64,000 nt of DNA, from NCBI RefSeq assembly GCF_021401245.1, contig NZ_JACBFY010000005.1, positions 496,001 through 560,000 of the forward strand. The letters run 5' to 3'. Positions 29,741-63,571 of the stretch are shown piece after piece. Each line of letters starts with the position of its first letter. Position 1 is the stretch's first letter. The DNA is from Pseudacidovorax sp. NFM-22. GTDB taxonomy: Bacteria; Pseudomonadota; Gammaproteobacteria; Burkholderiales; Burkholderiaceae_C. A program made the translations under genes and the position numbers. Below the pieces are notes generated by a model, which was not told the DNA's origin, searched no databases, and was given only the letters and a program-made list of their open reading frames with translations.

Positions 29741-29751
29741 TGGTTCAACCA
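29741..29751. promoter_or_regulatory. GntR-type operator, site 1
   Basis: TGGTTCAACCA is an exact copy of the shared palindrome, 49 bases before the LCAD-like gene. An extended -10 (TGCTAGCAT, 29758-29766) follows seven bases downstream, so the operator occupies the -35/spacer region. Confidence 0.7.
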
Positions 29752-29799
29752 ATTAGGTGCTAGCATGCCTGGCGTCCTTCTTCTTCTGCAAGCCCCGCC

Positions 29800-30957
29800 A
29801 TGCACCAACCCCACTGGATGAATGCCGAGCTCGAGTCGCTGCGCGATGCCGCGCGGCGCTTCTACGAAACCGAACTGGTGCCGCACGAGCCGCGCTGGTG
29901 CGCCCAGCAGCATGTGGATCGCGAGGTCTGGTACAAGGCCGGCGCCGCCGGCCTGCTGTGCCCCGGCATCGCCGAGGCCTACGGTGGCGGCGGCGGCAGC
30001 TTCCTGCACGAGGCCGTGATCTTTGCCGAGCAGGCCCGTGCCATCGCCGGCGGCATGGGCAACTCGCTGCACAGCGGCATCGTGGCCCATTACGTCGAGA
30101 ACTTCGCCAGCGAGGACCAGAAGCGCCGCTGGCTGCCGAAGATGGCCACCGGCGAGCTGGTCGGTGCGCTGGCCATGACCGAGCCGGGCACCGGCAGCGA
30201 CCTGCAGTCCATCCGCACGCGGGCACTGCGCGATGGCGATCACTATGTGGTCGATGGGGCCAAGACCTACATCACCAACGGCACCAGCGCCGACCTGATC
30301 TGCCTGGTCGCCAAGACCGATCCGTCGCAGGGCGCGCGCGGCGTGTCCATCCTGGTGGTCGAGGCCGCGAAGGTGACGGGCCTGCGCCGCGGCCAGCCGC
30401 TGCACAAGATCGGCATGCATTCGCAGGACACCTGCGAGTTGTTCTTCGACGGCATGCGCGTGCCCTGCGAGAACCTGCTGGGGCCCGAGGAGGGCCAGGG
30501 CTTTCGGCAGCTGATGAAGGAGCTGGCGCGGGAGCGGCTGATCACCGCGCTGATGTCCCTGGCCTGCATGGAGCGCGCCATCGAGGAGACGCTGCGCTTC
30601 ACCGCAGGCCGGCGCGTGTTCGGCCAGCCGCTGCTCGAGATGCAGAACACCCGCTTCAGGCTGGCGGAATGCGAGACCCAGGCCCACCTGGCGGGCGCCT
30701 TCGTCGACGACTGCGCCCGCCGCCTCCTGGCCGGCGCGCTGTCGCCCGCGACCGCCGCCATGGCCAAGTGGTGGGTCACCGACGCCTGCGGCAAGGTGGT
30801 GGACGAATGCCTGCAGCTGCACGGTGGCGCCGGCTACATGACCGAATACCCCATCGCCCGCCTGTACCAGAACGTGCGGGTGCACCGCATCCTGGCCGGC
30901 ACCAACGAGATCATGAAGGAGCTGATCGCCCGCGACATGGCGCAGCGCGCGGTCTGA
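29800..30957 (+). CDS. Acyl-CoA dehydrogenase, LCAD-like
   Basis: The 385-aa enzyme most resembles long-chain acyl-CoA dehydrogenase. LAMTEPGTGSDLQ (residues ~124-136) binds FAD. KELARERLITALM places a Glu where LCAD and isovaleryl-CoA dehydrogenase keep their catalytic base. The C-terminus LAGTNEIMKELIARDM matches LCAD, where the MCAD-type Glu is absent. LHGGAGYMTEYPIAR is also conserved. It should introduce the 2,3 double bond in a long or branched acyl-CoA and pass electrons to ETF. It is monocistronic behind operator site 1. No clear ribosome-binding site precedes ATG 29800; an ATG at 29818 is the alternative. Confidence 0.87.
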   Translation: MHQPHWMNAELESLRDAARRFYETELVPHEPRWCAQQHVDREVWYKAGAAGLLCPGIAEAYGGGGGSFLHEAVIFAEQARAIAGGMGNSLHSGIVAHYVENFASEDQKRRWLPKMATGELVGALAMTEPGTGSDLQSIRTRALRDGDHYVVDGAKTYITNGTSADLICLVAKTDPSQGARGVSILVVEAAKVTGLRRGQPLHKIGMHSQDTCELFFDGMRVPCENLLGPEEGQGFRQLMKELARERLITALMSLACMERAIEETLRFTAGRRVFGQPLLEMQNTRFRLAECETQAHLAGAFVDDCARRLLAGALSPATAAMAKWWVTDACGKVVDECLQLHGGAGYMTEYPIARLYQNVRVHRILAGTNEIMKELIARDMAQRAV

Positions 30958-30996
30958 CGCCGCGCCGCGCCGGGGCCCGGCCGGACGGCGCCGACG

Positions 30997-32047: not shown

Positions 32048-32058
32048 AGGTTCAACCA
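32048..32058. promoter_or_regulatory. GntR-type operator, site 2
   Basis: AGGTTCAACCA matches the core at 10 of 11 positions. It lies in the divergent gap between a Bug gene and the quinone-oxidoreductase gene. TAGCAT at 32073-32078 is the likely rightward -10. Confidence 0.6.
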
Positions 32059-33963: not shown

Positions 33964-34006
33964 CAGCGCCCGTCGACAAGCCGCCGACGGCCATGTTAGA
34001 TTTCCT

Positions 34007-34017
34007 TGGTCCAACCA
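34007..34017. promoter_or_regulatory. GntR-type operator, site 3
   Basis: TGGTCCAACCA lies four bases downstream of an extended -10 (TGTTAGATT, 33994-34002), so it would cover the transcription start of the racemase gene. Confidence 0.65.
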
Positions 34018-34094: not shown

Positions 34095-35230
34095 TGCCCG
34101 GCCCGCTCCACGGCGTACGCGTGATCGAGATCGCCTCGATCGGCCCCGGCCCGCTGGCCGCCATGCTGCTGGCCGACATGGGGGCGGAAGTGATCCGCGT
34201 CGACCGCCCCGGCCCGGCCGCCGGCGCAGGCATGGTTCCGCCGCACCAGGACATCTCGCGCCGCGGCCGGCGCTCCATCGCGCTGGACATCAAGCAGGAG
34301 GCCGCCCGCGAGGTGCTGCTGCGACTGATCGACGGCGCCGACGTGGTGGTGGAGGGCTTCCGCCCCGGCGTGATGGAACGGCTGGGGCTGGGGCCCGACA
34401 CCTGCCTGGCGCGCAACCCACGGCTGGTCTACGGCCGCATGACCGGCTGGGGCCAACAGGGGCCGCTGGCCGCGGCGGCGGGCCACGACATCAACTACAT
34501 CGCGCTGGCGGGCGCGCTGGGCATGATCGGGACGCCCGAGGCACCGGTGGCGCCGCTCAATCTGGTCGGCGACTACGGCGGCGGCACCATGCTGCTGGCC
34601 TTCGGCATCGCCTGCGCGCTGTTCGAGGCGCGTGGCAGCGGTCAGGGCCAGGTGGTCGATGCGGCCATGGTCGATGGCGTGTCGCTGCTCATGACGCTGT
34701 TCCACAGCATGCAGGCCGCGGGCCGCAGCAAGCCGCGCGGCACCGGCGTGCTGGACGGCGGCAGCCACTTCTACGGCAGCTACCGCTGCGCGGATGGCGG
34801 CTGGATCTCGCTGGGCACCATCGAGCCGCAGTTCTACGCCCTGTTGCTGGAGAAGCTGGGCATCGAGGACCCCGCGGCCTGGCCGCAGCACGAGCCCAGC
34901 CGCTGGCCGGCACTGAAAGCCGAACTGGCGCGCCGGTTCGCCCAGAAGACACGCGACGAATGGTGCGCCCTGCTCGAAGGCACGGACGTGTGCTTCGCGC
35001 CGGTGCTGGCCCTGGACGAAGTGCCCCGCCATCCGCACCAGGTGGCGCGGGACGCCTTCTACACGCAGGACGGCCTGACGCAGCCGGCGCCGGCGCCGCG
35101 CTTCAGCCGCTCGGCGCCCGAACGGCCGCGCCCGCCGGTGTCCGCGGGCACGGACACCGACGCGATCCTGCGTGAACTCGGCTACGGCGACACGGAGATC
35201 GCGGCCCTGCGCGGCGCCGGCGCGGGCTGA
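34094..35230 (+). CDS. Alpha-methylacyl-CoA racemase (family III CoA-transferase fold)
   Basis: This 378-aa protein has the CaiB fold ([13 protein letters not shown] at ~residues 29-41). It keeps the racemase catalytic set rather than the CoA-transferase Asp: [11 protein letters not shown] contains the His of the Mycobacterium MCR enzyme, VGDYGGG contains the partner Asp and IEPQFY the Glu. [22 protein letters not shown] is also MCR-like. It should interconvert (2R)- and (2S)-2-methylacyl-CoA thioesters, a step needed before beta-oxidation of isoprenoid or sterol side chains. It overlaps a possible leader frame (TGATG). Confidence 0.83.
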
Positions 35231-35304: not shown

Positions 35305-36375
35305 TTAGCGCTCGATCCACCCGGCGGCACGCTGCAACAGGCCGCGCGCGGCGTGGTGCAGCCGCTCGCCGGTGGCCACCGGCGCGAGGCCGGCACAGGC
35401 CCGCGCATGCGTGCCCTCCAGCACGATGGCCAGCTTGTAGCAGGCCAGCACGGCATACCAGCGGAAGGCGGCAATGTCGCGCCGGGTGAAGCGGGCGTAG
35501 TGCTCGACCAGTTCCTCCTCGCGCACGAAGCCCTCCCACGGGGCGATGCTGAGCGTGAGGTGGTGCGAGCCGTCGGGCCGCGGCCAGGTGGCCAGCAGCC
35601 AGCCCAGGTCCAGCAGTGGATCGCCCACGGTGGACATCTCCCAGTCCACCACCGCGGCCAGCTCGCCGCTGTCGTGGCGGAACAGGACGTTGGACAGGTG
35701 GAAGTCCCCGTGCAGCAGCCCCGGCGCCGTGTCCGCCGGCTGATGGGCCTGCAGCCACTGGGCGATGGGCGCCACATCCGGCAGGCCCGCCGGCCCCGGC
35801 CAGCCGGCATGGGTGGCATAGCTTTCGAGCTGACGGCTCCAGCGCTGCACCTGTCGTGTCAGGAAGCCCTGAGGGCGGCCGAAGTCCGCCAGGCCCAGGG
35901 CCGTGGGATCGAGGTTGCCCAGCACCGCGATGGCCTCGGCCATGGCCAGGCCCATGCGCCGCCGCAGGTCGGGCCGCGCGGCATGCAGCGGCGGCAAACC
36001 GCCGGTGCCGGCGTTGAAGCCTTCGACCGCACGCATGACGAAGAAGGCGGTGCCCAGCACCTGCGTGTCGGCGCAGGCGGCGACCAGCGCGGGATGCGGG
36101 ACGCCGCTGCCCGCCAGCGCGCCGAGCACGCGGGCCTCGCGCAGCATGGCCTGGTCGCTTTCGGGCCGGGGATGCGCGGGCGGCCGGCGCAGCACATAGG
36201 CCTGGCCGTCGCGCTCGAAGCGCAGGAGGATGTTCTGTGTGCCGCCGGTCAGCAGCCGGCAACCCTCCAGCGGCCCGCGGCCGACGCCCTGGCCATCGAG
36301 CCAGTCCTGGAGCCGATCCAGCGCAACCGGCAGGACTGCGGCGGCATCCGCAGCGATGTCGGCGCCCCTGCTCAG
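35305..36375 (-). CDS. LvaA/ACAD10-type acyl-CoA kinase (APH-fold phosphotransferase)
   Basis: The protein is about 356 aa with the aminoglycoside-phosphotransferase fold. GGTQNILLRFE is the nucleotide loop (~residue 41), LLHGDFHLSNVLF the catalytic loop (~residues 220-232) and VVDWEMSTVGDPLLDLG the metal loop. This subfamily includes the kinase domains of ACAD10/11 and LvaA, which phosphorylate 4-hydroxyacyl-CoA so that the hydroxyl can be eliminated. It directly follows an ACAD10/11-like dehydrogenase gene. Start problem: between that gene's stop and the conserved region no ATG, GTG or TTG is in frame. A CTG at 36375, overlapping the stop as CTGA, is the best candidate. Confidence 0.72.
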   Translation of the reverse strand: MSRGADIAADAAAVLPVALDRLQDWLDGQGVGRGPLEGCRLLTGGTQNILLRFERDGQAYVLRRPPAHPRPESDQAMLREARVLGALAGSGVPHPALVAACADTQVLGTAFFVMRAVEGFNAGTGGLPPLHAARPDLRRRMGLAMAEAIAVLGNLDPTALGLADFGRPQGFLTRQVQRWSRQLESYATHAGWPGPAGLPDVAPIAQWLQAHQPADTAPGLLHGDFHLSNVLFRHDSGELAAVVDWEMSTVGDPLLDLGWLLATWPRPDGSHHLTLSIAPWEGFVREEELVEHYARFTRRDIAAFRWYAVLACYKLAIVLEGTHARACAGLAPVATGERLHHAARGLLQRAAGWIER

Positions 36376-46534: not shown

Positions 46535-46545
46535 TGGTTGAACCA
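46535..46545. promoter_or_regulatory. GntR-type operator, site 4
   Basis: TGGTTGAACCA, flanked to give the longer palindrome TTGGTTGAACCAA, lies directly upstream of the leftward SDR-led operon. A TAACAT -10-like hexamer adjoins it on the minus strand. Confidence 0.75.
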
Positions 46546-46630
46546 ATGTTAGATGTTGGCAGATTCAGACGTCAACGGTCGTCCCGGTGGCCGGCCCGCG
46601 CATCTGTCGCGTCCGTGTCTCGTCCCTATT

Positions 46631-47863: not shown

Positions 47864-47867
47864 CATC

Positions 47868-48266
47868 ATGGCGACCCCGTACACCGAACGCCCCCTCACC
47901 ACGCTACCGCACGATGCCGCCACCGAGCGCTTCTGGGCCGGCACCGCCGAACACCTGCTGCTGACGCGCCAGTGCACGAGCTGCCACAAGCCCCACTGGT
48001 ACCCGCGGCCGGTCTGCCCCTTCTGCCAGGGCGACACCGAGTGGCGCAGCCTGTCGGGCAAGGGCACGATCTACAGCGTCAGCGTGACGCGCCGCGCGGG
48101 TCCGGTGGCCTATGCCATCGCCTATGTGACGCTGGACGAGGGCATCACCATGCTGACCAACATCGTGGATTGCGACCTCGATTCGCTGCACATCGGCCAG
48201 CGCGTGCAGGTGCGCTTCAAGCCTGCCGAAGACGGCACGCTGGTGCCCATGTTCACGCCCAGCTGA
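47868..48266 (+). CDS. DUF35 OB-fold/zinc-ribbon partner protein
   Basis: The 132-aa protein has a rubredoxin-like zinc ribbon with C-x-x-C...C-x-x-C (CTSCHKPHWYPRPVCPFCQG, residues ~36-55), then an OB fold (GKGTIYSVSVTRRAGPVAYAIAYV, GQRVQVRF). Such proteins form stable complexes with SCP2-thiolases, as ChsH2-DUF35 does with Ltp2, and deliver acyl-CoA. It begins four bases after the thiolase-fold gene, so equimolar synthesis is likely. Confidence 0.85.
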   Translation: MATPYTERPLTTLPHDAATERFWAGTAEHLLLTRQCTSCHKPHWYPRPVCPFCQGDTEWRSLSGKGTIYSVSVTRRAGPVAYAIAYVTLDEGITMLTNIVDCDLDSLHIGQRVQVRFKPAEDGTLVPMFTPS

Positions 48267-48277
48267 AAGGCGCCGCC

Positions 48278-49072
48278 ATGGACACCTTGCAGTTCGAGGT
48301 CCGGGACCAGGTCGGCTGGGTGCGCCTGTCCCGTCCCGCCATCCACAACCCCTTCGACGCGGACCTGCGTGCCGACCTGATGACCGTGCTGGAGCAGGTC
48401 CGCGACGACCCCAGCATCCGCGTGCTGGTGCTCACCGCCACGCCCGGCACCTTCTGTGCCGGCGGCAACCTGCATCTGCTCAAGGCGCAGATGGATTCCG
48501 GGCCGGCCTACTGGCAGCAGCGCATCCGCGGCGGGCTGCGATTCGTCCAGGACATGCTGAACCTGGGGCGGCCGGTCATCGCCGCCGTGGACGGCCCGGC
48601 CATGGGCGCCGGCTTCGCGCTGGCCCTCACGGCCGACATCGTGCTGGCGTCCGAGCGTGCGCGCTTCTGCATGGCCTACCTGCGGCTGGGACTGGTGCCC
48701 GATCTGGGCGCGATGTACCTGCTGCCGCGCGCGGTGGGCGTGCAGCGGGCCAAGGAGCTGATCTTCTCCACCCGCGACATCGATGGGCACGAGGCGCAGC
48801 GCCTGGGCATCGCGATGGAGGTCCATCCGAGCGAAGCGCTGGAGGCCCGCGCCGCCGCCGTCGCCCGCAGCCTCACGCAGGCCGCGCCCACGGCCCTGGC
48901 CCTGACCAAGGCCGCGCTCAATGCTTCGCTCGATGCGGACCAGCAGACCCTGTTCAGCATGGAGGCGGGCAGCCAGGCCGCCGCCTTCGCGGCGCCCGAG
49001 CCGCGCGAAGCCATCGAGGCCATGCTGGCCCGGCGGCCGCCGCCGTACCGCGGCTTCCCGCCAGCCGCCTGA
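48278..49072 (+). CDS. Enoyl-CoA hydratase/isomerase family protein
   Basis: The 264-aa crotonase has SRPAIHNPFD, FCAGGNLHLLKAQ (~62-74), [20 protein letters not shown] (~103-122) and LVPDLGAMYLLPRAVG, with one acidic catalytic candidate. It is a paralogue of the gene at 43829 in the divergent operon. A conserved PPPYRGF tail closes the protein. It starts 11 bases after the DUF35 gene and is the last of this three-gene unit, unless read-through continues into the GntR genes 78 bases on. Confidence 0.84.
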   Translation: MDTLQFEVRDQVGWVRLSRPAIHNPFDADLRADLMTVLEQVRDDPSIRVLVLTATPGTFCAGGNLHLLKAQMDSGPAYWQQRIRGGLRFVQDMLNLGRPVIAAVDGPAMGAGFALALTADIVLASERARFCMAYLRLGLVPDLGAMYLLPRAVGVQRAKELIFSTRDIDGHEAQRLGIAMEVHPSEALEARAAAVARSLTQAAPTALALTKAALNASLDADQQTLFSMEAGSQAAAFAAPEPREAIEAMLARRPPPYRGFPPAA

Positions 49073-49139
49073 GCGCGATCGCCCGAGCGTCCTGCCGGGG
49101 CCCGGGGACGCGTCGTCGCTGTATTACGATTGCCCAAAG

Positions 49140-49150
49140 AGGTTCATCCA
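49140..49150. promoter_or_regulatory. GntR-type operator, degenerate site 6 at the regulator gene
   Basis: AGGTTCATCCA matches the core at 9 of 11 positions and abuts the ATG of the first GntR gene, overlapping its ribosome-binding region. It may mediate autoregulation. By itself this match would be weak. Confidence 0.4.
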
Positions 49151-49978
49151 ATGCCGACGAAGCGCATCTCCCCGTCCATTCCGCGCGCCAAGGCCGGCCC
49201 CGGCGCCACAGCCGCCCTCGCAGAACCGGCCGTCACGCCCCTGTTCCAGCCGGTGCGCACGCGCCGCACCTTCGAGGCGGTCGCCAGTCAGATCCGCGAA
49301 CAGCTGGCCCGCGGCGAGCTGCGCCCCGGCGACCGGCTGCCCGCCGAGAAGGACCTGGCCGAGCAGTTCGATGTCAGCCGAAGCGCCGTGCGCGAGGCGC
49401 TGCGCAGCCTGGAGTCGGCGGGCGTGGTGGAGGCCCTCACCGGCCTGAACGGCGGCTTCTTCATCCGCAACGGCAAGCCCACCAGCCTGACCCAGTCCGT
49501 GCGCGACATGGTGTCGCTGCAGCAGGCGTCGATCGCCCACGTCACCGAGGCCCGCATCGAGCTGATGGCGGTGGCCATCCGCCTGGCCTGCGAGCGGGCC
49601 ACCGAGGAGGAGATCGACGCCATCGAGGCCGACATCGACTACCACACCGACCTGTTCCGGCAAGGCCACGGCTCGCGCAATACCCATTCGGTGATCCGCT
49701 TCTACCAGCTCATCGCCGAGGCCACCCACAACGAGGTGTTCACGGCGATGGTCGATGCGTTGTCGGAAATCATCCGCGGCCTGCTGGCCCAGGTGGACCC
49801 GCGTCCGCGCAAGGACTTCATGCAGGTGCGCCGCAAGGTGCTCACGCACCTGCGCGCCCGCGATGCCTCGGCCGCGGCGGCGGCCATGACGGCACACCTC
49901 AAGCTCATCAGCGACTACCTCGAAAGCGAAAGCAAGAAGGCCGCGACCAAGCGCGCCGCTGCCCGCCGGGCCGCTTGA
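49151..49978 (+). CDS. GntR-family regulator (FadR/FCD type), first of a tandem pair
   Basis: The 275-aa protein has a winged helix at residues ~36-100 (QIREQLARGELRPGDRLPAEKDLAEQFDVSRSAVREALRSLESAGVV) and a C-terminal FCD ligand domain. The usual F-H in the FCD metal motif reads RFYQLIAEATHN, so metal binding may be altered. An AGAGG precedes ATG 49151. This protein and its neighbour are the natural candidates to bind the TGGTTBAACCA palindromes found at nearly every promoter from 29.7 to 63.6 kb, because FCD regulators bind sites of the TNGTNNNACNA type. Confidence 0.88.
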   Translation: MPTKRISPSIPRAKAGPGATAALAEPAVTPLFQPVRTRRTFEAVASQIREQLARGELRPGDRLPAEKDLAEQFDVSRSAVREALRSLESAGVVEALTGLNGGFFIRNGKPTSLTQSVRDMVSLQQASIAHVTEARIELMAVAIRLACERATEEEIDAIEADIDYHTDLFRQGHGSRNTHSVIRFYQLIAEATHNEVFTAMVDALSEIIRGLLAQVDPRPRKDFMQVRRKVLTHLRARDASAAAAAMTAHLKLISDYLESESKKAATKRAAARRAA

Positions 49979-49998
49979 CGCCCCAGCTCTCCAGACCC

Positions 49999-50826
49999 AT
50001 GGCAACCAAGACTTCGTCTCCCTCCGCTCTCTCCGCCGCGCCGCATCCCGACCCGGCGGCGCCGGCCGTGCGCTTCCAGGCCGTGCGCTCGGCCCGCGCC
50101 TTCGAGGAGATCGCCGACCAGATCCGCACCGAACTGGCCGAAGGCCGGCTGAAGGTGGGCAGCCGCCTGCCGGCCGAACGGGCCCTGGCGGTGCAGTTCG
50201 GCGTGTCGCGCAACACGCTGCGCGAGGCACTGCGCTCGCTGGAACACGGCGGCCTGGTGCGGCTGCAGAAGGGCGCCAGCGGCGGTGCCTTCATCAGCGA
50301 AGGCTCGGGCCTGGCCATCACCACCAGCCTGATGGACCTGTACCACATCGGCACCATCACGCCCGCCCACCTGACCGAGGCGCGCATCTGGCTCGAATCG
50401 GTGATCGTGCGCGAGGCCTGCAGCCGCGCCACGCCCGCGGACCTGGAGGCGCTGCGCAACAACGTCGAGGCCGCCGCTCAGGCCACGAAGGACGGCGACT
50501 TCCAGCGCCGCGCCGAGATGCACCTGGACTTCCACCGCATCCTGGCGCGCATGACGGGCAACCCGCTCATGGTGCTGATGATGGACAGCCTGATGGCCGT
50601 GCTCAGCCGTTTCATCCAGACCCTGGGCGAGTACGAGAACGCCTTTGTGCTGCCCTCGCGCAAGCGCTTCCTCAAGCACATGGAGGCGCGCGACGTCGAC
50701 GCCGCCGTGGCCGAGATGGAGGCCAGCCTCAAGCGCCTGCAGAAGGGCTACCTCTCGCACCTGGCGACCGATGACGCTACGTCGGCGCCCGCGCCCCGCA
50801 GCCGCGCACCGGCCAAGAAGCGCTGA
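49999..50826 (+). CDS. GntR-family regulator (FadR/FCD type), second of a tandem pair
   Basis: The 275-aa protein, the same length as its neighbour, has a matching layout: QIRTELAEGRLKVGSRLPAERALAVQFGVSRNTLREALRSLEHGG, then GGAFISEG. Its FCD domain keeps HLDFHRILARMTGNP with the metal-type His. It is clearly a duplicate that has diverged. ATG 49999 has no ribosome-binding site. A TTG at 49975 overlapping the previous stop is possible; either way translation is probably coupled. A good terminator follows at 50832. Confidence 0.87.
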   Translation: MATKTSSPSALSAAPHPDPAAPAVRFQAVRSARAFEEIADQIRTELAEGRLKVGSRLPAERALAVQFGVSRNTLREALRSLEHGGLVRLQKGASGGAFISEGSGLAITTSLMDLYHIGTITPAHLTEARIWLESVIVREACSRATPADLEALRNNVEAAAQATKDGDFQRRAEMHLDFHRILARMTGNPLMVLMMDSLMAVLSRFIQTLGEYENAFVLPSRKRFLKHMEARDVDAAVAEMEASLKRLQKGYLSHLATDDATSAPAPRSRAPAKKR

Positions 50827-50952: not shown

Positions 50953-50963
50953 TGGCTCTACCA
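50953..50963. promoter_or_regulatory. GntR-type operator, site 7
   Basis: TGGCTCTACCA (9 of 11) sits directly after a TAGAAT -10 (50948-50953), 39 bases before the MaoC gene. Confidence 0.5.
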
Positions 50964-51001
50964 TTGACAAATGCATGGCCTGCAGCCGTGCGGCCACCAC
51001 C

Positions 51002-51481
51002 ATGTCCTACACCTACGAGCGCACCCCGCGCGGGATGTATTTCGAGGATTTCGAGATCGGCCGGACCATCGTCACCTCGCGGCGCACGGTCACGCTGACC
51101 GACATCGTCAACTTTGCCTGCCTGTCGGGCGACCACAACGCGCCGCACGTCGACCATGAGTTCTGCAAGACCCAGTCCTATGGCGAGCCCATCGCGCACG
51201 GTCCATTGGTGCTGGCCATCGTGGGCGGGCTGCAGTGCCTCACCGGCATCAACGACGGCACCATCATCGCCATGACGGGCCTGGACCAGTGGCGCATGCA
51301 CCTGCCGGTGAAGGCGGGCGACACCATCCATGCGCTGATCACGCCGGTGGAGAAGAAGCTCACCAGCAGCGGCACGAAGGGCATCGTGACCTGCGAACGC
51401 ATCGTCAAGAACCAGCGCGGCGAGACGGTGCACACCATGGTGATCGGCAACATGTACCGCTGCCGGCCGACGGCCGCCTGA
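51002..51481 (+). CDS. MaoC-family dehydratase
   Basis: The 159-aa single-hotdog protein contains LSGDHNAPHVDHEFC and, after a gap, GEPIAHGPLVLAIVGG, giving the Asp/His pattern of (R)-specific enoyl-CoA hydratases. The N-terminus (RTPRGMYFEDFEIG) is typical, which favours ATG 51002 over an ATG nine codons upstream; neither has a clear ribosome-binding site. It is monocistronic between a terminator and the next operator, so it can be controlled separately, and would hydrate an intermediate of the island. Confidence 0.83.
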   Translation: MSYTYERTPRGMYFEDFEIGRTIVTSRRTVTLTDIVNFACLSGDHNAPHVDHEFCKTQSYGEPIAHGPLVLAIVGGLQCLTGINDGTIIAMTGLDQWRMHLPVKAGDTIHALITPVEKKLTSSGTKGIVTCERIVKNQRGETVHTMVIGNMYRCRPTAA

Positions 51482-51570
51482 CCGCGGCGACGGCCGGGCA
51501 TGCGCCGCCAGGGGGCGGCCTCCGGTCAACCCCTAGGTGGACAGCGCGCAGGGACGGGCCACAATCTTAT

Positions 51571-51581
51571 TGGCCCAACCA
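51571..51581. promoter_or_regulatory. GntR-type operator, site 8
   Basis: TGGCCCAACCA, 41 bases before the Bug gene, is immediately preceded by a TCTTAT -10-like hexamer. The flanks (ATTGG...CCATTGATTT) match those of site 3. Confidence 0.6.
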
Positions 51582-51621: not shown

Positions 51622-52596
51622 ATGCACCGCCCGACCGCCGCCCGAATCCTCTGCCTGGCCTTCGCTGCCGCGGCGCCGGCACTCGCCGCCGCCCAGGAGG
51701 CGTATCCGACTCGGCCCATCACCATCGTCGTGCCCTACGCGGCCGGCGGCACCAGCGATGGCCAGGTTCGCATGTTCCAGGACGCGCTGGGCAAGGAACT
51801 GGGCCAGCCCATCGTGGTGGACAACCGCCCCGGCGCCTCGGGCGCCATCGCCGCCCAGCTGGTGGCGCGCGCACGGCCCGACGGCTACACCCTGCTCTAT
51901 CCCAACAACGGTGTGCTGACCACGCCGTTGCTCAACGACAAGGCCGGCTACGACGCCTTCAAGGACTTGCGGCCCGTGACGCTGACCTCGGTGGTGCCCA
52001 TGGTGCTGGTGGTCAACAAGGCCGTGCCTGCGGACGACGCCAAGTCCTTCTTCGAATGGGCGCGCAAGCAGCCCAAGGGCGTCATGTACGCCTCCGCCGG
52101 CACGGCCTCCTACGGCCATCTCTCCACGGCCCGCCTCATCCAGCTGTCGGGCATCAAGGCCGAACACATTCCCTACAAGGGCGAGGCGGCCTCCACCATG
52201 GCGGCGCGCACGGGCGAGGTGCAGATGCTGGTGACCACGCCCTCCTCCGCCATGCTGGGCCAGGTGCAGCAGGGCAACCTGAAGCTGCTGGGCGTCGGCA
52301 CCCGGGAACCCTCCAGCGTGGTACCGGGCACCCCGCCCCTGAACCGCGCCGTGCCCGGCTACGAGGCCCAGGCCTGGTTCGGCGTCATGGCACCGTCGGG
52401 AACGCCCGACGCCGTGGTGGAACGGCTCAACGCCGCCTTCCGCAAGGTCATGGCCGACGACGGGCTCAAGACCCGGCTGCTCGCCACCGGGGCCGTGGCT
52501 CGCACCACCAGCCCGGCCGAGTTCGCCCAGATGATGAGGACCGAGTCCGATCAGCTGCGCGAGATCGTCACCCAGTTCAACATCAAGGCGGAATGA
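51622..52596 (+). CDS. Bug/TctC-type periplasmic solute receptor
   Basis: The 324-aa protein has a Sec signal (hydrophobic core to about residue 24, ALAAAQE) and the Bug blocks YPTRPITIVVPYAAGGTSD and VDNRPGASGAIAAQLVARARPDGYT. It heads an operon with a flavoprotein dehydrogenase and a crotonase, and its stop overlaps the flavoprotein start (ATGA). The receptor gene is thus directly coupled to a catabolic enzyme gene, suggesting that its ligand is that enzyme's substrate or a precursor. Confidence 0.88.
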   Translation: MHRPTAARILCLAFAAAAPALAAAQEAYPTRPITIVVPYAAGGTSDGQVRMFQDALGKELGQPIVVDNRPGASGAIAAQLVARARPDGYTLLYPNNGVLTTPLLNDKAGYDAFKDLRPVTLTSVVPMVLVVNKAVPADDAKSFFEWARKQPKGVMYASAGTASYGHLSTARLIQLSGIKAEHIPYKGEAASTMAARTGEVQMLVTTPSSAMLGQVQQGNLKLLGVGTREPSSVVPGTPPLNRAVPGYEAQAWFGVMAPSGTPDAVVERLNAAFRKVMADDGLKTRLLATGAVARTTSPAEFAQMMRTESDQLREIVTQFNIKAE

Positions 52597-54383
52597 ACGC
52601 GCGCGCCCCCGAAGCGGCGGAGCACGACCTGGTGGTCGTCGGCTCTGGCGCAGCAGGCCTGACCGCCGCGATCACGGCCCGCAAGCGCGGGCTGGATGTG
52701 GTGGTGCTCGAAAAGGAGCCCGTCTTCGGCGGCACCACGGCACTGTCGGGTGGCGTGCTGTGGATTCCGCTGACGCACCACGGCCTGCGGCAGAACCCGG
52801 CCGACACCGCAGAACAAGTACGTGCCTTCATGCAGGCCGAGACCGGCCGGTTCTACGACGCAGCCGCGGTGGACGCCTTCATCGAGAACGGCCCGCGCAT
52901 GGTGGACTTCCTGGAGCGCGAGACGGCCATGCAGTTCGTGCCCACGCTCTACCCCGACTACCACCCCACCGCGCCGGGCGGCGCCGACGTCGGCCGCTCG
53001 ATCCTGGCCAAGCCCTACGACATCCGCGGCCTGGGCAAGGACATGGCCCGGCTCAAGCCGCCGCTGCGCAGCATCACCTTCATGGGGATGATGTTCAACT
53101 CGTCCAACGCCGACCTGAAGCACTTCTTCCGGGCCACCAAGTCGCTCACCTCCTTCTTCTACGTGGCGCGGCGCCTGGCCAACCACCTCAAGGAGCTGCT
53201 GCTCTACCGCCGCGCCGTGCAGGTCACCAGCGGCAATGCGCTGGCGGCACGGCTGGCGCAGTCCGCGCTGGACCTGGGCATTCCCATCCTGACCGGCATG
53301 CCGGCACAACGTCTGCTGGTGGAGGACGGCCGCGTCACCGGCGTGGTGGCCGGACCGGACGGGGCCGAGCGCACGCTGCGGGCACGGCATGGGGTGATCC
53401 TTGCCTGCGGCGGATTTCCGCACGACACCCGCCGGATCGCGCAGGCCTACCCGCACCTTCGACGCAGCCACCGCCACCTGTCGCCCACGCCGCAGAGCAA
53501 CACCGGCGACGGCTGCGCCATGGCCGAAGCGGCCGGCGGCGTGGTGGAGATCCGCTTCCAGGAGCCCGCCGCCTGGATGCCCGTCACCCATGTGGATTTC
53601 GGCGGCGGCCAGACCGGCGTGTTCCCGCATCTGCTGGATCGCTACAAGCCCGGCGTGATCGGCGTGATGGCCAACGGCCGGCGCTTCACCAACGAATCCA
53701 ACTCCTACCACGACGTCGGCGCCGCCCTGCACCGGGCCTGCGAAGGCATGCCCGAGACCGCGATGTGGCTCGTCTGCGACCAGGCTGCGCTCAGCAAGTA
53801 CGGCCTGGGCTACGTCAAGCCGGCGCCGATTCCGCATGGCGCGCTGCTGCGCAATGGCTATCTCCTGCGCGGCCGCACGCTGGAAGAGCTGGCCCGCAAC
53901 GCCGGCATCGACCCTGACGGTCTGGCCCGCACCGTGGCCGACTACAACCAGCCCGCGGCGCGGGGCGAGGACCCGGCCTTCGGTCGCGGCAGCACCAGTT
54001 TCAACCGCTACCTGGCCGACCCCGAACACGGACCCAACCCCTGCGTGGCGCCCCTCGCCCAGGGGCCCTTCTACGCCATCAAGCTGCTGATGGGCGACCT
54101 GGGCACCTTCGACGGCCTGAGCACTGCCGTCACCGGCGAAGTGCTGCGCCGTGACGGCAGCACGATTCCCGGCCTCTATGCGGCGGGCAACGACCGAGCC
54201 AGCGTGATGGGTGGCAACTACCCGGCCGCGGGCATCACGCACGGGCCCAACATGGCCTTCGCCTTTCTCACGGCCAACCAGATTGCCGATCAGGCGCTGC
54301 AACTCGGCAAGGCGGCGCCGTCCATGCCAGTCGGGCAGCCGATGCCAGGCGTTGCGGCGGGCCAACCGGTGCAGGTGGCGTGA
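52593..54383 (+). CDS. FAD-dependent dehydrogenase, 3-ketosteroid-delta1-dehydrogenase-like
   Basis: The 596-aa flavoprotein belongs to the fumarate-reductase/KstD superfamily. VVGSGAAGLTAAITARKRGLDVVVLEK (~residues 14-40) and GGTTALSGGVLWIP bind FAD. ANGRRFTNESNSYHDVG (~370) and the C-terminal GGNYPAAGITHGPNMAFAF follow. The Y-P-x-x-G-x-T block resembles the KstD substrate-binding Tyr/Gly pair, so desaturation next to a ring ketone is plausible. Other members reduce fumarate-like acids or act on urocanate, so the assignment is to superfamily with a preference. It sits between a Bug receptor and a crotonase gene, both overlapping. Confidence 0.75.
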   Translation: MNARAPEAAEHDLVVVGSGAAGLTAAITARKRGLDVVVLEKEPVFGGTTALSGGVLWIPLTHHGLRQNPADTAEQVRAFMQAETGRFYDAAAVDAFIENGPRMVDFLERETAMQFVPTLYPDYHPTAPGGADVGRSILAKPYDIRGLGKDMARLKPPLRSITFMGMMFNSSNADLKHFFRATKSLTSFFYVARRLANHLKELLLYRRAVQVTSGNALAARLAQSALDLGIPILTGMPAQRLLVEDGRVTGVVAGPDGAERTLRARHGVILACGGFPHDTRRIAQAYPHLRRSHRHLSPTPQSNTGDGCAMAEAAGGVVEIRFQEPAAWMPVTHVDFGGGQTGVFPHLLDRYKPGVIGVMANGRRFTNESNSYHDVGAALHRACEGMPETAMWLVCDQAALSKYGLGYVKPAPIPHGALLRNGYLLRGRTLEELARNAGIDPDGLARTVADYNQPAARGEDPAFGRGSTSFNRYLADPEHGPNPCVAPLAQGPFYAIKLLMGDLGTFDGLSTAVTGEVLRRDGSTIPGLYAAGNDRASVMGGNYPAAGITHGPNMAFAFLTANQIADQALQLGKAAPSMPVGQPMPGVAAGQPVQVA

Positions 54384-55270
54384 TGGGCAAGTGGCGAACC
54401 GAAGCGCGCTTCGTCGGCATGACAGTGGACGACGGGGTCGCCCGCGTCACCCTCGACCATCCGGCACGCCGCAACGCCCTGTCGTGGGACATGCTGGTCG
54501 AGCTGCGGGCCGCGCTGCTGGAGGCGGACGACCTGCGCGCCGTGCATGTCATCGTGCTCGAAGGCGCAGGGCCGGACTTCTGCGCCGGCTACGACATGCA
54601 GTCGGCCTACGCGCGCTATGCCAGCGAATCCGCCGGCGAGGCCGGCGCGGACGTCTACCGCAGCGGCAGCGGCTCCTTCGACGACGATGCCTGGAAGCTC
54701 GAGCGCTTCCAGGAACTGCTGCGCACGCCCTTCACGCTGCACAAGCCGGTGATCGCCAAGGTGCATGGCCATTGCGTGGCCGGTGGCACCGACTTGGCGC
54801 TGTACTGCGACATGGTGATCGCCGCGGACGACGCCCGCATCGGCTTCCCGGCCACGCGCGCCATGGGCTCGCCGCCCAACCACATGTGGTTCTACAACGT
54901 GGGGCCGCAATGGGCCAAGCGGCTGCTGCTGAGCGGGGATGTGGTCAGCGGTGCCGATGCGGCGCGAATCGGCCTGGCCGTGGCCAGCGCACCGGCCGAG
55001 GCGCTGGAGCAAGAGGTGATGAGCCTGGCGCGCCGCCTCGCCACCATCGATGCGGAGCTGCTGGCCACCAACAAGCGCATCGTCAACATCGCACTGGAAC
55101 TCGCGGGTGCCGGCACCATCGCCCGCCTGGCCGCCGAGATGGACAGCCGGGCCCACCTGAGCCGCGCCAAGCGGGAATTCGATGCCGACGTGGCGGCGAT
55201 GGGCTTCAAGGCCGCCGCACGTCGGCGGGACGAACCCTTCGGCGACGGCACGGTGCGACCCAGCTGGTGA
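54383..55270 (+). CDS. Enoyl-CoA hydratase/isomerase family protein
   Basis: The 295-aa crotonase has LDHPARRNALSWD, FCAGYDMQSAYARYA (~residues 67-81), KVHGHCVAGGTDLALYCDMVIAADDARIGFP (~125-155) and AMGSPPNHMWFYNVG. In the last block the usual second acid is not obvious. The C-terminal half is longer than in standard hydratases. The ATG overlaps the flavoprotein stop (TGATG). It may be a ring-hydrolysing or isomerising crotonase acting after the KstD-like step. Confidence 0.8.
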   Translation: MGKWRTEARFVGMTVDDGVARVTLDHPARRNALSWDMLVELRAALLEADDLRAVHVIVLEGAGPDFCAGYDMQSAYARYASESAGEAGADVYRSGSGSFDDDAWKLERFQELLRTPFTLHKPVIAKVHGHCVAGGTDLALYCDMVIAADDARIGFPATRAMGSPPNHMWFYNVGPQWAKRLLLSGDVVSGADAARIGLAVASAPAEALEQEVMSLARRLATIDAELLATNKRIVNIALELAGAGTIARLAAEMDSRAHLSRAKREFDADVAAMGFKAAARRRDEPFGDGTVRPSW

Positions 55271-55339: not shown

Positions 55340-56305
55340 TCAGAGCTTGACGCGCCCCGAGCGCACCAGCTTCTCCGAACTCGCCAGCTGCTCCTTAAAG
55401 AAGGCGTGCGTGCGATCCGGCGCCCAGCCGACCGAGTCGAAGCCCAGCTCGGCAATCTTGGCCTTGACGTCGGGCAGCAGCACGATCTCGTTGACCTCCT
55501 TCGTGAGCAGGTCCACCACGGCCTTGGGCGTGCCGGCGGGTGCCATCAGCGCCGCCCAGCCCGGCATGTCCACGCCGGGATAGCCGAGTTCGGCAAAGGT
55601 GGGCACGTCGGGATAGCTGGGCGAGCGCTCGGCCGAGGCCACGGCCAGCGTGCGGATGCGACCCGGGTAGCGCTTGGTGCCGCCGATGGAGGCGCACACG
55701 GCCTGCACCTGGCCGCCGATCACGTCCTGCAGCGCAGGCGCCTCGCCCTTGTAGGGCACATGGATGGTCTCGATGCCGGCCGCCACGTTGAACAGCTCGC
55801 CGACGAAGTGCCCACCCGAGCCCTGCCCGTAGGAGGCGTAGGCGAGCTGCCCCGGCCGGGTCTTGGCCAGCGCCACGTACTGCCGCAGCGTGGAGGCCGC
55901 GAGGTTTTCGCTGATGCCCAGTGCGATGGGCGTGAGCGCGAGCATGCCCACGGTGCTGAAGTCCTCTTGCCGGTAACCCGGCTTGGACATCAGCAGCAGG
56001 TTGCTGAGAAAGGCGCTATAGGCCAGCAGCAGCGTGTAGCCGTCAGGGGCAGCCCGGGCCACGGTCTGTGCCGCGATGGCACCGGTGGCGCCGGGCTTGG
56101 ACTCCACGATCACCGGCTGGCCCAGCCGCTCGGTGAGCTTCTGGCCCACCAGCCGCATCATGATGTCGTGGCCGCCGCCCGGGGGCGTGGGGATGATGAA
56201 GCGGATGACGTTGTTGGGATAGCCCTGCGCCTGGGCCGCCGTGGTGGCGGCGCCGCCCAGGGTGGCCAGGCCGGCCGCCAGCACCTGTCGCCGGGAAAAT
56301 TCCAT
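55340..56305 (-). CDS. Bug/TctC-type periplasmic solute receptor
   Basis: The 321-aa protein starts at ATG 56305 with a twin-arginine-like signal (SRRQVLAAG...AAQAQG). The Bug core is FIIPTPPGGGHDIMMRLVG, VESKPGATGAIAAQTVARAAPDGYT and VPYKGEAPALQDVIGG. It is monocistronic, convergent with the crotonase gene, and preceded by operator site 9. It is the fourth Bug receptor in the window, and the third within the regulon. Confidence 0.87.
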   Translation of the reverse strand: MEFSRRQVLAAGLATLGGAATTAAQAQGYPNNVIRFIIPTPPGGGHDIMMRLVGQKLTERLGQPVIVESKPGATGAIAAQTVARAAPDGYTLLLAYSAFLSNLLLMSKPGYRQEDFSTVGMLALTPIALGISENLAASTLRQYVALAKTRPGQLAYASYGQGSGGHFVGELFNVAAGIETIHVPYKGEAPALQDVIGGQVQAVCASIGGTKRYPGRIRTLAVASAERSPSYPDVPTFAELGYPGVDMPGWAALMAPAGTPKAVVDLLTKEVNEIVLLPDVKAKIAELGFDSVGWAPDRTHAFFKEQLASSEKLVRSGRVKL

Positions 56306-56323: not shown

Positions 56324-56334
56324 TGGTTGAACCA
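56324..56334. promoter_or_regulatory. GntR-type operator, site 9
   Basis: TGGTTGAACCA, an exact core, lies 19 bases upstream of the Bug start codon on the minus strand. The 188-base gap to the next gene contains nothing else recognisable. Confidence 0.7.
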
Positions 56335-56492: not shown

Positions 56493-56924
56493 CTAGCCGC
56501 CGGTGTCGCCGCCCGGCTGCACCCAGCGGGGGCTGTTGATGGCAAGCGCATCCCGCAGCCCATCGCGCAGATACGCCAGCAGGGTTGGCGAATCGAGCGG
56601 CAGCCGGCCGGAGGCGATCTCCGCGCGCAGGGCGTCGTCCGGGGCCAGGGCATCCGCTTGCGCCTCTGCGGCCGAGCGCTCACCGAGCAGCGCGGCCAGC
56701 CCGGCCCGCGCCTGCGCGTCGGCCGCCGGGCCAAGGCGCAGCTCACGCGCCACCAGCCGCAGCACGTTGACGCACACCCGCAGCTGGAAGGCGTGATAGC
56801 CGTCCAGCGAGGGGCGCAGTTCCAGGTCGAGGTAGTCGGCCGCGGCATCGAGCAGCACCTCGGCGGGCGGCACCCGTGTGGACACGGGGCGGTCTTCGGC
56901 CTTGCCTGCGGAGGGGGCGCTCAC
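56493..56924 (-). CDS. DUF6285-type small protein (possible LvaB-like kinase partner)
   Basis: The 143-aa helical protein has the pattern PPAEVLLDAAADYLDLELRPSLDGYHAFQLRVCVNVLRLVARELRLG at the N-terminus and LLAYLRDGLRDALAINSPRW near the C-terminus, typical of DUF6285 proteins encoded beside APH-type acyl-CoA kinases. It starts at GTG 56924, which overlaps the kinase stop (GTGA), and is the last gene of its operon. A role as a small subunit required by the kinase, as LvaB is for LvaA, is inferred from position. Confidence 0.65.
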   Translation of the reverse strand: MSAPSAGKAEDRPVSTRVPPAEVLLDAAADYLDLELRPSLDGYHAFQLRVCVNVLRLVARELRLGPAADAQARAGLAALLGERSAAEAQADALAPDDALRAEIASGRLPLDSPTLLAYLRDGLRDALAINSPRWVQPGGDTGG

Positions 56925-57940
56925 GGCGCCATCTCCAGCGGCGCGACCAGGTTCAGAAAGTCCCACAGCGGCTCCTCCATGCGGCGGCCGATGGCGGCCA
57001 GTTCCAGGCTGGCGGGGCGGCCGTCGGGCCGCTTCTGGCTGCCGCGGCGGGCGCAGGCGATGGCCCACTTGAGATTGGCGAAGGCCTCCCAGAAGCGCAC
57101 CCGCTGCGGGTCGACGGGCTGCCCGGAAGCCGACTCATAGGCGGCATAGAGCGCCTCGCGCGCGCCGAAGCCGCCCACTTCGCCCGGGCCGCCGAATCGC
57201 CAGGTGCGCATGCACAGCACGCCCAGGTCCTGCATGGGATCGCCGATGCGGGCGATCTCCCAGTCCAGCACGCAGCACACACCGTCCGGCCCGACGACGA
57301 GGTTGCCGGTGCGGAAGTCGGCATGCACCAGCGCCGGCGCCACCGGCGGCGGCAGGTGGCGGCCGATCCAGGCCATGGCATGGTCGAGCGCGGCATGGCG
57401 CACGCCGCAGCCATCGAGCAGGGCGCGGTAGGCCGCCAGTTCCTGCGCCGGCGTGAAGGCCTGCAGGAAGGACAGCCCGCGGATGGGCGTGCGATGGATC
57501 GTGGCGAGGATCTCGCCGCACTGGCCCGCCATGCGGGTGCGGGCAGCTGCGAAGGCCTCGTCGCGCAGGATGCGCCGGCCCAGCGTCTCGCCGGCCACGC
57601 GCCGGGTGACGTAGCCCTCACCCAGGCCGTCCTCGGGCGCGAGCACCGCCTCCACCACGGGCGCGGGCGTGCCGGCGGCGCGGGCGGCCTGCATCAGCGC
57701 CGCCTCCTGCGGGCCGTTCAGCTTGGGCACCTGGCCGGCGGCGGCACCGAGTGGGGGCGTCTGCTGCAGGATCAGCGGCTGCGGCGGCGCGCCCGGCACG
57801 GCCCAGTCGAAGGACCAGGTGGCCTTGGTCCCGCCGGCCGTCAGCCGCTGCAGGCCACGCACCTCGCCGGTCGAACCGGAGCGGCGCGCCAGCACACGGC
57901 CCAGCGCGTCCGCGACTTCGTCGCTTGGCGACGCGGCCAT
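56921..57940 (-). CDS. LvaA/ACAD10-type acyl-CoA kinase (APH-fold phosphotransferase)
   Basis: The 339-aa APH-fold protein has GGTKATWSFDW (~residue 36), the catalytic loop ALVHADFRTGNLVVG (~215) and the metal loop VLDWEIARIGDPMQDLGVLC. The C-terminus LWDFLNLV is usual for the ACAD10-associated group. The start at 57940 overlaps the ligase stop as TGATG. Gene order (acyl-CoA dehydrogenases, ligase, kinase, DUF6285 protein) resembles levulinate-type lva operons, implying phosphorylation of a 4-hydroxyacyl-CoA made or activated in this operon. Confidence 0.78.
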   Translation of the reverse strand: MAASPSDEVADALGRVLARRSGSTGEVRGLQRLTAGGTKATWSFDWAVPGAPPQPLILQQTPPLGAAAGQVPKLNGPQEAALMQAARAAGTPAPVVEAVLAPEDGLGEGYVTRRVAGETLGRRILRDEAFAAARTRMAGQCGEILATIHRTPIRGLSFLQAFTPAQELAAYRALLDGCGVRHAALDHAMAWIGRHLPPPVAPALVHADFRTGNLVVGPDGVCCVLDWEIARIGDPMQDLGVLCMRTWRFGGPGEVGGFGAREALYAAYESASGQPVDPQRVRFWEAFANLKWAIACARRGSQKRPDGRPASLELAAIGRRMEEPLWDFLNLVAPLEMAP

Positions 57941-60667: not shown

Positions 60668-60680
60668 CGGGTTCCCTGCC

Positions 60681-61893: not shown

Positions 61894-61904
61894 TGGTTCA
61901 ACCA
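61894..61904. promoter_or_regulatory. GntR-type operator, site 10
   Basis: TGGTTCAACCA, an exact core. Flanks TTA...ATGATTGA resemble sites 3, 8 and 11. It precedes the acyl-CoA dehydrogenase operon. Confidence 0.72.
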
Positions 61905-61988
61905 ATGATTGATGGCAATGGCGGCGGACCCGGGTGCCGCGGCGCCCTCCGCCCCTGAATGGGGTCGAACGCCGGGCCCCGGCCGGCT

Positions 61989-63533
61989 TCAGACGATGCG
62001 GCTGCTGCGGCCGCTCCAGTAACGCTCGCGCAGGAGCCGCTTGTAGAGCTTGCCGTTGTCCTGGCGTGGCATCTGGGCCTCGAAGTCGATGCTGCGCGGA
62101 CACTTGAGCGCGGCCAGGCGCGAGCGGCAGAAGGCCAGCAGTTCCGCTTCCAGCGCGGGGCCGGCTTGGTCCATGTCCACCGGCTGGACCACGGCCTTCA
62201 CTTCTTCGCCGAATTCGGCGTTGGGCACGCCGAACACGGCCACGTCCATGACCTTCGGATGCAGCGTGAGCACCCCCTCGGCCTCCTGCGGATAGATGTT
62301 CACCCCGCCCGAGATGATCATGTAGGCCTTGCGGTCCGTGAGGTAGAGATAGCCTTCCTCGTCAAGGTAGCCCACGTCGCCCAGGGTGGACCAGCCCTGC
62401 GCGTTGAACACGCCCTCGGTCTTGCCGGGGTCGTTGTGGTAGGTGAAGCGACGGCTTCCCTCGAAGTAGATGGTTCCGGGCTCGCCGGGCGGCAGCACCC
62501 GGCCCTCGTCGTCCACGATGCGGATGGTGTTGAGCAGCGACCTGCCGACCGAGCCGCGGTGCGACAGCCATTCCTCGGAGGTGATGAAGGTGCAGCCCGA
62601 GCCTTCCGAGCCGCTGTACTGCTCGACGATGCACGGCCCCCACCAGTCGATCATCTGCTGCTTGACGTCCACCGGGCAGGGTGCCGCGGCATGCAGGGCG
62701 CAGCGCAGCGAGGACACGTCATAGGACGCGCGCACCTCGGTGGGCAGCTTGAGCATGCGTACGAACATCGTCGGCACCACCTGCGTGTGCGTCACGCCGA
62801 AGCGCTGGACGGCGGCAAGGAACCCCTCGGGGTCGAACTTCTCCATCACCACCACGGTGCCGCCCATGCGCTGCACCGTCGTACTGAAGCCCAGCGGCGC
62901 CGCATGGTAGAGCGGTGCCGGCGAGAGATAGATCGTGTCCTCGTCGAAGCCCAGGGTGCGCGCGAAGGTCGCCATGATGGGCACCATGGCCTCGACCGGG
63001 TTGTTGGCGAAGGGCACCTTGATGCCCTTGGGCTGACCCGTCGTGCCCGAGGAATACAGCATGTTGTGGCCCCCCACCTCGTCGGCAATGGGCGTGTCGG
63101 GGCGAGTGCCCGCGGCTTCTTCCCACCGCGCGAAGGCGCCGAAGGATGCGTCCACCGCCAGGCAGTGCGCCACGGCGGGGCAGAGGTCCGGCAGTTGCAG
63201 TGCCACCGTCTGCATGGCCGCCGAGGACACCAGCGCCGCGGCGCCGCAGTCGTTGACGATGTACGCCGCCTCGGCGGCGCTCAGGTGCGTGCTGATGGGT
63301 GTGAAGTACAGCCCCGCACTCATCGCGGCCCAATAGACCTCGTAGAAGCGGAGGTTGTTCTCCATCAGCACGGCGATGTGGTCCCCCGGGCGCAGCCCGA
63401 GGGCACGCAGGAGGTGCGCGCCCTGATTGGCGCGCGCTGTCAACGCGGCGTAGCTGAGGACAGCACCGGTGCCAGCCATGATGACGGCCGCCTTGTCGGG
63501 GTGGCGGAGGGCGGCGAGGCGGGGATGGGTCAT
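61989..63533 (-). CDS. Acyl-CoA synthetase (AMP-forming)
   Basis: The 514-aa ANL ligase has MLYSSGTTGQPKGIKVP (~residue 165), IVEQYSGSEGSG, the hinge STLGDVGYLDEEGYLYLTDRKAYMIISGG, and the C-terminal PRQDNGKLYKRLLRERYW with the catalytic Lys. It is close in layout to the ligase at 57940 but not identical; FEVYWAAMSAGLYFTPISTHLS-type N-terminal blocks are usual for FadD17/FadD3-like enzymes. It is monocistronic behind operator site 11. ATG 63533 was chosen, since upstream ATGs would run through the operator and terminator. Confidence 0.87.
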   Translation of the reverse strand: MTHPRLAALRHPDKAAVIMAGTGAVLSYAALTARANQGAHLLRALGLRPGDHIAVLMENNLRFYEVYWAAMSAGLYFTPISTHLSAAEAAYIVNDCGAAALVSSAAMQTVALQLPDLCPAVAHCLAVDASFGAFARWEEAAGTRPDTPIADEVGGHNMLYSSGTTGQPKGIKVPFANNPVEAMVPIMATFARTLGFDEDTIYLSPAPLYHAAPLGFSTTVQRMGGTVVVMEKFDPEGFLAAVQRFGVTHTQVVPTMFVRMLKLPTEVRASYDVSSLRCALHAAAPCPVDVKQQMIDWWGPCIVEQYSGSEGSGCTFITSEEWLSHRGSVGRSLLNTIRIVDDEGRVLPPGEPGTIYFEGSRRFTYHNDPGKTEGVFNAQGWSTLGDVGYLDEEGYLYLTDRKAYMIISGGVNIYPQEAEGVLTLHPKVMDVAVFGVPNAEFGEEVKAVVQPVDMDQAGPALEAELLAFCRSRLAALKCPRSIDFEAQMPRQDNGKLYKRLLRERYWSGRSSRIV

Positions 63534-63546
63534 GCGCCGTTTCTTA

Positions 63547-63571
63547 TGGTTCAACCAATCGAATACTAGCA
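63547..63571 (-). promoter_or_regulatory. GntR-type operator site 11 with adjacent extended -10
   Basis: TGGTTCAACCA occupies 63547-63557. On the minus strand an extended -10, TGCTAGTAT (63571-63563), lies five bases upstream of it, so bound protein would cover the start site of the ligase gene. Confidence 0.72.

Follow-up and report, generated by a model that had tools for sequence, protein, structure and literature searches.

The window analysed here is a stretch of 64,000 nucleotides of Pseudacidovorax sp. NFM-22 (contig NZ_JACBFY010000005.1, hereafter C17, positions 496,001–560,000 of the genome G000, which totals 6,418,937 bases). From 29.8 kb to about 76 kb, past the end of the window, Pfam recognizes acyl-coenzyme A (acyl-CoA) dehydrogenases, family III CoA-transferases, CoA ligases, enoyl-CoA hydratases, MaoC hydratases, a FadB-like protein, SDRs, an NMO-family protein, two FAD_binding_2 enzymes (the one at 52593 being KstD-like), a Rieske oxygenase, five TctC/Bug proteins and three FCD-type GntR regulators. 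One short palindrome with the core TGGTTBAACCA (TGGTTNAACCA) precedes nearly every transcription unit of this catabolic set of about 40 kb and almost none elsewhere in the genome. Two of the regulators, GntR1 (49151–49978, + strand, on a longer open reading frame 49130–49978) and GntR2 (49975–50826, + strand, with a start possibly as late as 50068), are encoded in tandem inside the set. Coordinates beginning with L001 refer to the stretch past the window, where L001:3870, 5698 and 5712 correspond to 67870, 69698 and 69712 in window numbering.

The palindromes, termed operators below, were scored with a matrix of 19 columns trained on the eleven sites of a preliminary description of the window, whose sequences are indeed found at all eleven coordinates. 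The scores of those eleven are therefore circular; three added sites, the loci of relatives and a de novo search stand outside that circularity. Gene starts were called by a codon-usage script trained on the window, with no standard gene caller, and units were judged by orientation and gaps. The leftmost operator, an exact core at 29741–29751 (score 28.4), is intergenic, with the called start of an acyl-CoA dehydrogenase gene (29818–30957, +) 67 bases further on. It is followed by a one-mismatch operator at 32048–32058 (21.5) between a divergent TctC/Bug gene (−) and an ADH-enoyl-CoA hydratase operon (+), the identical 19-mer being present between the orthologues in the family genome G177 (L039:7764), and by a variant at 34007–34017 (22.3) before a family III CoA-transferase gene (34121–35230, +). 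The exact operator at 46535–46545 (28.2), whose core is invariant across the window and three relatives, heads a long minus-strand run (46528–35305) that encodes an SDR, DUF7064, enoyl-CoA hydratase, MaoC, NMO, thiolase, FadB-like protein, a second SDR, acyl-CoA dehydrogenase and APH kinase. On the other side of this divergent promoter, the exact operator at 46631–46641 (29.4) precedes genes for a thiolase-like protein, a ChsH2-type OB-fold protein and an enoyl-CoA hydratase (46688–49072, +; Pfam and gene calls), followed by GntR1 and GntR2. These two operators are 96 bases apart, a spacing of 96–97 in three relatives (L006, L007 and L009), and looping between them is possible.

Further right, a variant at 50953–50963 (21.1), identical over 19 bases in L006–L009, stands before a MaoC gene (50975–51481, +) and another at 51571–51581 (22.7) before a TctC-FAD (KstD-like)-enoyl-CoA hydratase operon (51622–55270, +). 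Exact cores occur at 56324–56334 (26.5; exact in L006–L009 as well) before a TctC/Bug gene (55340–56284, −), at 61894–61904 (28.3) before an operon for two acyl-CoA dehydrogenases, a CoA ligase, an APH kinase and a DUF6285 protein (61844–56493, −), and at 63547–63557 (24.3) before a CoA ligase gene (61989–63533, −), for which the best NCBIfam model is FadD4, under its cut-off. Every gene run between 29.8 and 69.7 kb begins at a site, twin sites at 69698 and 69712 preceding the last one. The 176-base gap that separates the APH gene (35305–36195) from the gene ahead of it in the long minus-strand run has no site, so that a separate operator-free promoter is possible there. The remaining site, at 49140–49150 with two mismatches, has the lowest score of all fourteen (16.4). 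It reads AAAGAGGTTCATCCAATG, an extended Shine-Dalgarno sequence 7–8 bases before the ATG of GntR1; probably a ribosome-binding site, which would also account for its conservation in relatives, it was rejected as a firm operator. Ten of the eleven sites first described are thus kept, and the eleventh is doubtful.

The matrix scan covered the window and the following 24 kb (88 kb), while genome-wide scans were made by pattern. It returned fourteen sites from 29.7 to 69.7 kb with scores of 16.4–29.4, the next best scoring 9.3, against a mean of 0.2 hits of at least 15 in ten Markov controls. Three of them are new with respect to the training set (67870, 69698 and 69712) and all three lie past the window. 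The local set is confirmed and better supported than first stated; it extends to about 69.7 kb, beyond the 34 kb attributed to it. To the left its limit was correctly placed, as no hit of at least 9 was obtained before 29,741. All fourteen sites are located between called genes, in agreement with the preliminary description, yet 93% of the organism's own stretch is coding by gene calls. The nearest called start is 1–104 bases away, instead of the 0–90 bases announced. Within the window, 42 strand-matches with up to two mismatches (21 places) were counted against 12.5 expected from shuffles.

Throughout the genome, the exact core occurs at eight places, six of them within 29,741–63,557, so the motif does not recur equally at unrelated promoters and its confinement holds. 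A stricter pattern, WTGGTYNRACCAW, likewise has eight exact occurrences. Contig C17 has all of them, seven inside the cluster and the eighth at C17:391840. Once a mismatch is allowed, the core yields 74 forward matches against 71 for the reversed-pattern control; places of this kind outside the cluster were rejected as targets for lack of excess. The stricter pattern gives 33 against 15 in the control (12 in the cluster, one at C17:391840 and 20 elsewhere), and the 20 elsewhere were likewise discarded in view of that control. An exact site at C15:164792 (score 18.3), surrounded by rve transposase and group II intron genes, was not retained either and looks like chance.

The two tandem proteins are FCD-type GntR regulators as first described, with Pfam GntR/FCD scores of 71.1/59.6 bits for GntR1 and 69.2/80.6 bits for GntR2 (cut-offs 27/24.3). 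The winged helix and the FCD domain, both above cut-off, place them in the FCD subfamily (PF07729) of the GntR superfamily. They are 36% identical and their genes overlap by 4 bases. The recognition helix of GntR2, SRNTLREALRSLE, is identical in 28 of 30 aligned GntR2 rows. The AlphaFold2 model of GntR2 has a mean predicted local distance difference test (pLDDT) of 82.9 and a predicted template modelling score of 0.65, with block pLDDT of 81–98 over residues 112–260. It shows seven C-terminal helices (112–125, 130–151, 154–172, 176–193, 197–217, 225–237 and 241–269). Since the effector domain has seven helices in the FadR group and six in the VanR group (PMC7797058), the model assigns GntR2 to the FadR group. 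Its best Foldseek matches are GntR-family structures including NanR, CGL2915 and FadR, with modest template modelling (TM) scores. Metal-binding FCD domains use Asp or Asn and three His as ligands (PMC7797058). At these positions the 30 GntR2 rows have H (24) or N (6), H (30), R (30) and S (18, with H in one), and the five GntR1 rows V/I, Y, R and H, so that neither protein has the complete metal site. A third FCD-GntR, GntR3 (L001:7086–7892; Pfam 50.3/78.9 bits), belongs to the operon that follows the twin sites 69698/69712 and keeps the full D-H-H-H site.

To see which protein accompanies the motif, 33 loci were fetched through GntR2, whose presence is thus given, in stretches reaching up to 10 kb on either side. 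The closest named loci are three of Pseudacidovorax (L006–L008, GntR2 95–98% identical) and a Comamonadaceae record (L009, 93%). At least one site scoring 15 or more was found in 32 of the 33, where GntR2 identity ranges from 43 to 98% and the records are named Beta-, Alpha- or, in one case, Deltaproteobacterium, or just Proteobacteria. The sole exception is a Streptomyces locus (L038, GntR2 33% identical) with no site of at least 15. The 28 distant loci (L010–L037) contain 87 matrix hits against 5.6 expected, both being summed per-locus figures. A de novo search of these 28 loci for inverted repeats of 5-mers with spacers of 0–6, made without the window sites, ranked TGGTT-n1-AACCA first, with 29 occurrences in 19 of the loci against 0.19 expected. 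The consensus of the distant loci is TCAATGGTTSAACCATTGA (70 sites, all 28 loci). Of their 71 sites scoring at least 20, 70 are outside called genes, in sequence called 78% coding, and 62 have a called start within the next 400 bases. In four loci (L010, L011, L012 and L046), GntR1-GntR2 is divergent from an acyl-CoA dehydrogenase operon and a strong site (27.9–29.4) occupies the common intergenic region. The local FCD-GntR regulon proposed for this locus is supported as the best reading. In different genera and classes the motif moreover goes with GntR2, the second protein of the tandem, also at loci whose fetched stretch gave no GntR1 match.

An unbiased test of co-occurrence was made in 200 family genomes. 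The pattern WTGGTTNAACCAW is present 7, 6, 5 and 3 times in the four genomes with a GntR2 of at least 65% identity (G000, G177, G053 and G122, respectively) and is absent from G071, of the same genus, which has no GntR2 match. G158 (GntR2 52%) has one site, which precedes a Rieske gene and is 1.5 kb away from the GntR2-like gene. A homologue of the thiolase encoded at 46688 was found in 22 genomes, though other pathways may account for some of these hits (61–85%); among the 18 that lack a GntR2 match, 16 have no site and two have one, which argues that the motif follows the regulator rather than that catabolic gene. Fisher values of 1.1e-6 and 1.4e-4 were obtained with cut-offs (at least 3 sites; 60% identity) set post hoc and with relatedness ignored, and are not relied on. 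Taken with the conserved recognition helix, this co-occurrence makes GntR2 the most likely operator-binding protein.

The position of the operators relative to promoters bears on what the bound protein would do. A promoter scanner returned two, two and one promoter-like sites in 29.5–47.5 kb, 47.5–64 kb and L001:1–13000 (expected 0.9, 0.7 and 0.4). All five, in 47.5 kb scanned, are on an operator or no more than 5 bases from one: 46575–46546 (−) abuts operator 46535, 33973–34002 (+) ends 4 bases before 34007, 61918–61890 (−) overlaps 61894, 51538–51565 (+) ends 5 bases before 51571 and L001:5670–5697 (+) is at 69698. Just after operator 46631, the hexamer TATTAT is shared without change by the window and three relatives. 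The operators lie over or next to the −10 or start (46535, 34007, 51571 and 69698) or over the spacer or −10 (46631 and 61894), an arrangement that fits a blocking repressor.

The palindrome is thus probably the operator of an autoregulated GntR2 repressor controlling the cluster. That GntR2 binds the sites, that it represses and does not activate, and what kind of molecule induces the units are inferences. GntR2 would be a pathway-specific FCD-type repressor, possibly aided by its tandem paralogue GntR1. A dimer of GntR2 would sit on the 19-bp inverted repeat TCAATGGTTSAACCATTGA across the −10/start region of the units of the cluster and block RNA polymerase. A metabolite of the cluster, most likely a CoA-thioester intermediate, would release it, and the units would be induced together. 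An inducer of this kind is suggested by the FadR-like fold, by a metal site that has been lost and by the CoA-thioester enzymes encoded around the regulator. Behind the thiolase, OB-fold and enoyl-CoA hydratase genes, GntR1-GntR2 would be autoregulated through operator 46631 if co-transcribed with them.

Several observations weigh against this assignment. The weaker GntR2 homologues of G097 (55%) and G115 (48%) come without an exact site, 34 of the 193 family genomes lacking a GntR2 match have at least one, and four of the 193 have 3–7 (G031, G112, G113 and G157; reversed-pattern control 0–3 there). Only five of the fourteen operators have an adjoining promoter-like sequence by the scanner, the other nine having none, and GntR1, in tandem here, could bind the same sites.

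This last point leads to the reading in which GntR1, or a GntR1-GntR2 heterodimer, binds the operators in this genome rather than GntR2 alone. The overlapping genes, the relatedness of the two proteins and the similar recognition helix of GntR1, SRSAVREALRSLE, speak for it, as does the finding of GntR1 at 52% identity or more only in four family genomes that also have GntR2. It is nevertheless rather unlikely, because many motif-bearing loci (e.g. L014, L018, L021, L025, L028 and L030–L034) have no GntR1 match within the fetched stretch, although GntR1 may lie elsewhere there, and three genomes with distant GntR1 homologues only (G044, G055 and G192; 37–43%) have no exact site. A regulator that activates rather than represses is less probable still. 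GntR proteins can activate, and promoters may be weak at the nine operators where the scanner found none, but the operators are over or beside the −10/start or spacer and not at −41 or −61. The operators of Atu1419, a demonstrated FCD repressor, occupy the same positions (PMC7797058). It is very improbable that GntR3 or a regulator encoded elsewhere binds the sites. GntR3 does lie behind the twin sites, but its helix and wing are unlike those of GntR2, in which the metal ligands kept by GntR3 are missing. It was rejected as the binder on its match in L029 only among L006–L037, against a motif in all 32 of these loci, several of which, including L006–L009, end before its expected place. Short palindromes do recur, as the exact site on C15 illustrates, but chance, composition or copies of one repeated element can practically be dismissed as their origin here, contradicted as they are by the Markov controls, flanks that vary from site to site, the confinement in the genome, the matrix scan, the motif in the GntR2-fetched loci and the de novo search.

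The proposed GntR2 repressor and its operators can be set beside characterized FCD-GntR regulators. Operators of FCD-GntR regulators are palindromes of the TNGTNNNACNA type, and the core TGGTTSAACCA of the window and the distant loci belongs to that class. Nearly the same palindrome is bound by the FCD-GntR PdhR of E. coli, with the operator (A)ATTGGTnnnACCAAT(T) and its 9-bp core GGTnnnACC (PMC7660256); this match makes the present core a normal operator of the FCD class, although it differs from the PdhR box by its centre TNA and its outer arms TCA/TGA. GntR1 and GntR2 are each hit by the NCBIfam PdhR model, at scores far under its cut-off. PdhR senses pyruvate and has 35 reported E. coli targets (PMC7660256), whereas the sites described here are nearly confined to one catabolic cluster. 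GntR2 resembles E. coli FadR, whose effector is acyl-CoA (PMC7797058), in its predicted FadR-group fold with seven C-terminal helices, and the FadR structures 1hw1 and 1h9g are Foldseek matches of the model (TM 0.39–0.48); sequence similarity is low (E 2e-8). FadR is moreover a broad regulator of fatty-acid metabolism. Atu1419 of Agrobacterium fabrum is, as proposed for GntR2, an autoregulated FCD repressor of a catabolic cluster, with palindromes over the −10 and between −35 and −10; it differs in belonging to the six-helix VanR group, in being a tetramer with a zinc site and in its palindrome ATGTATACAT (PMC7797058). The best PDB sequence hit (6on4, E 8.6e-16) and the best NCBIfam hit, below cut-off, are to E. 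coli NanR, whose operator is instead a (GGTATA)3 repeat (PMC8012715). Passages of a source on aromatic regulators of betaproteobacteria mention GntR a single time, in connection with AphS of the phenol genes (PMC6449761). Open-access literature was searched for the motif letters and the regulon topic, and none of the matches listed concerned this regulator, as judged by title (subscription journals and regulon databases being outside the scope). The kind of control is thus already known, that of an ordinary FCD repressor regulon, of which GntR2 and its operators are a clear new example, not found in the literature searched.

Three pairs of thiolase and ChsH2-type OB-fold protein are encoded in the cluster (46688–48266, L001:884–2505 and L001:8863–10553), which suggests several side-chain or ring-cleavage steps. 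The APH-type kinases (56493–57940 and 35305–36195, both −) stand beside acyl-CoA dehydrogenases and CoA ligases, and one adjoins the DUF6285 protein. This arrangement resembles the 4-hydroxyacyl-CoA kinase/dehydrogenase step of ACAD10/11, ACAD11 being among the PDB hits of 56921–57940, and also LvaAB of Pseudomonas. The Rieske oxygenase (L001:5760–7076) is a close match along its entire length (824.6 bits) to PDB 7fhr, a putative phthalate 4,5-dioxygenase according to its deposition, and its true substrate may be a clue to the pathway. The literature search listed no paper naming 7FHR.

The preliminary description had presented the regulon as self-contained. This is almost correct, with one likely target in trans on the same contig, at a distance of 134 kb from the cluster. 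It is a CoA-transferase-NMO-TctC run, and the site at C17:391840 (L004:5001; score 22.5) stands some 140 bases ahead of its called start; run and operator together span L004:5001–8471. In G053 the three genes have relatives (65, 67 and 60% identical) that are grouped inside the cluster, flanked by relatives of its FadB-like and DUF6285 genes, which supports the operon as a relocated member of the regulon. The 4.2-kb G053 stretch around them (L048) has no site of its own. In G177, G071 and G122 the CoA-transferase gave no match at E 1e-100. The motif thus also flags pathway members that have left the cluster. More speculatively, GntR2 and its 19-bp operator might form a portable control module kept across alpha-, beta- and deltaproteobacteria while CoA-catabolic operons reshuffle, split or scatter, with moved operons keeping or regaining the operator, as at C17:391840, and GntR1 adding a second input via heterodimers. 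Overall, an uncharacterised CoA-catabolic island of about 40 kb, with relatives in several classes of Proteobacteria, gains one common operator and a candidate regulator identified by name, and a reporter on the 46535–46631 divergent promoter would allow the substrate of the pathway to be found by inducer screening.

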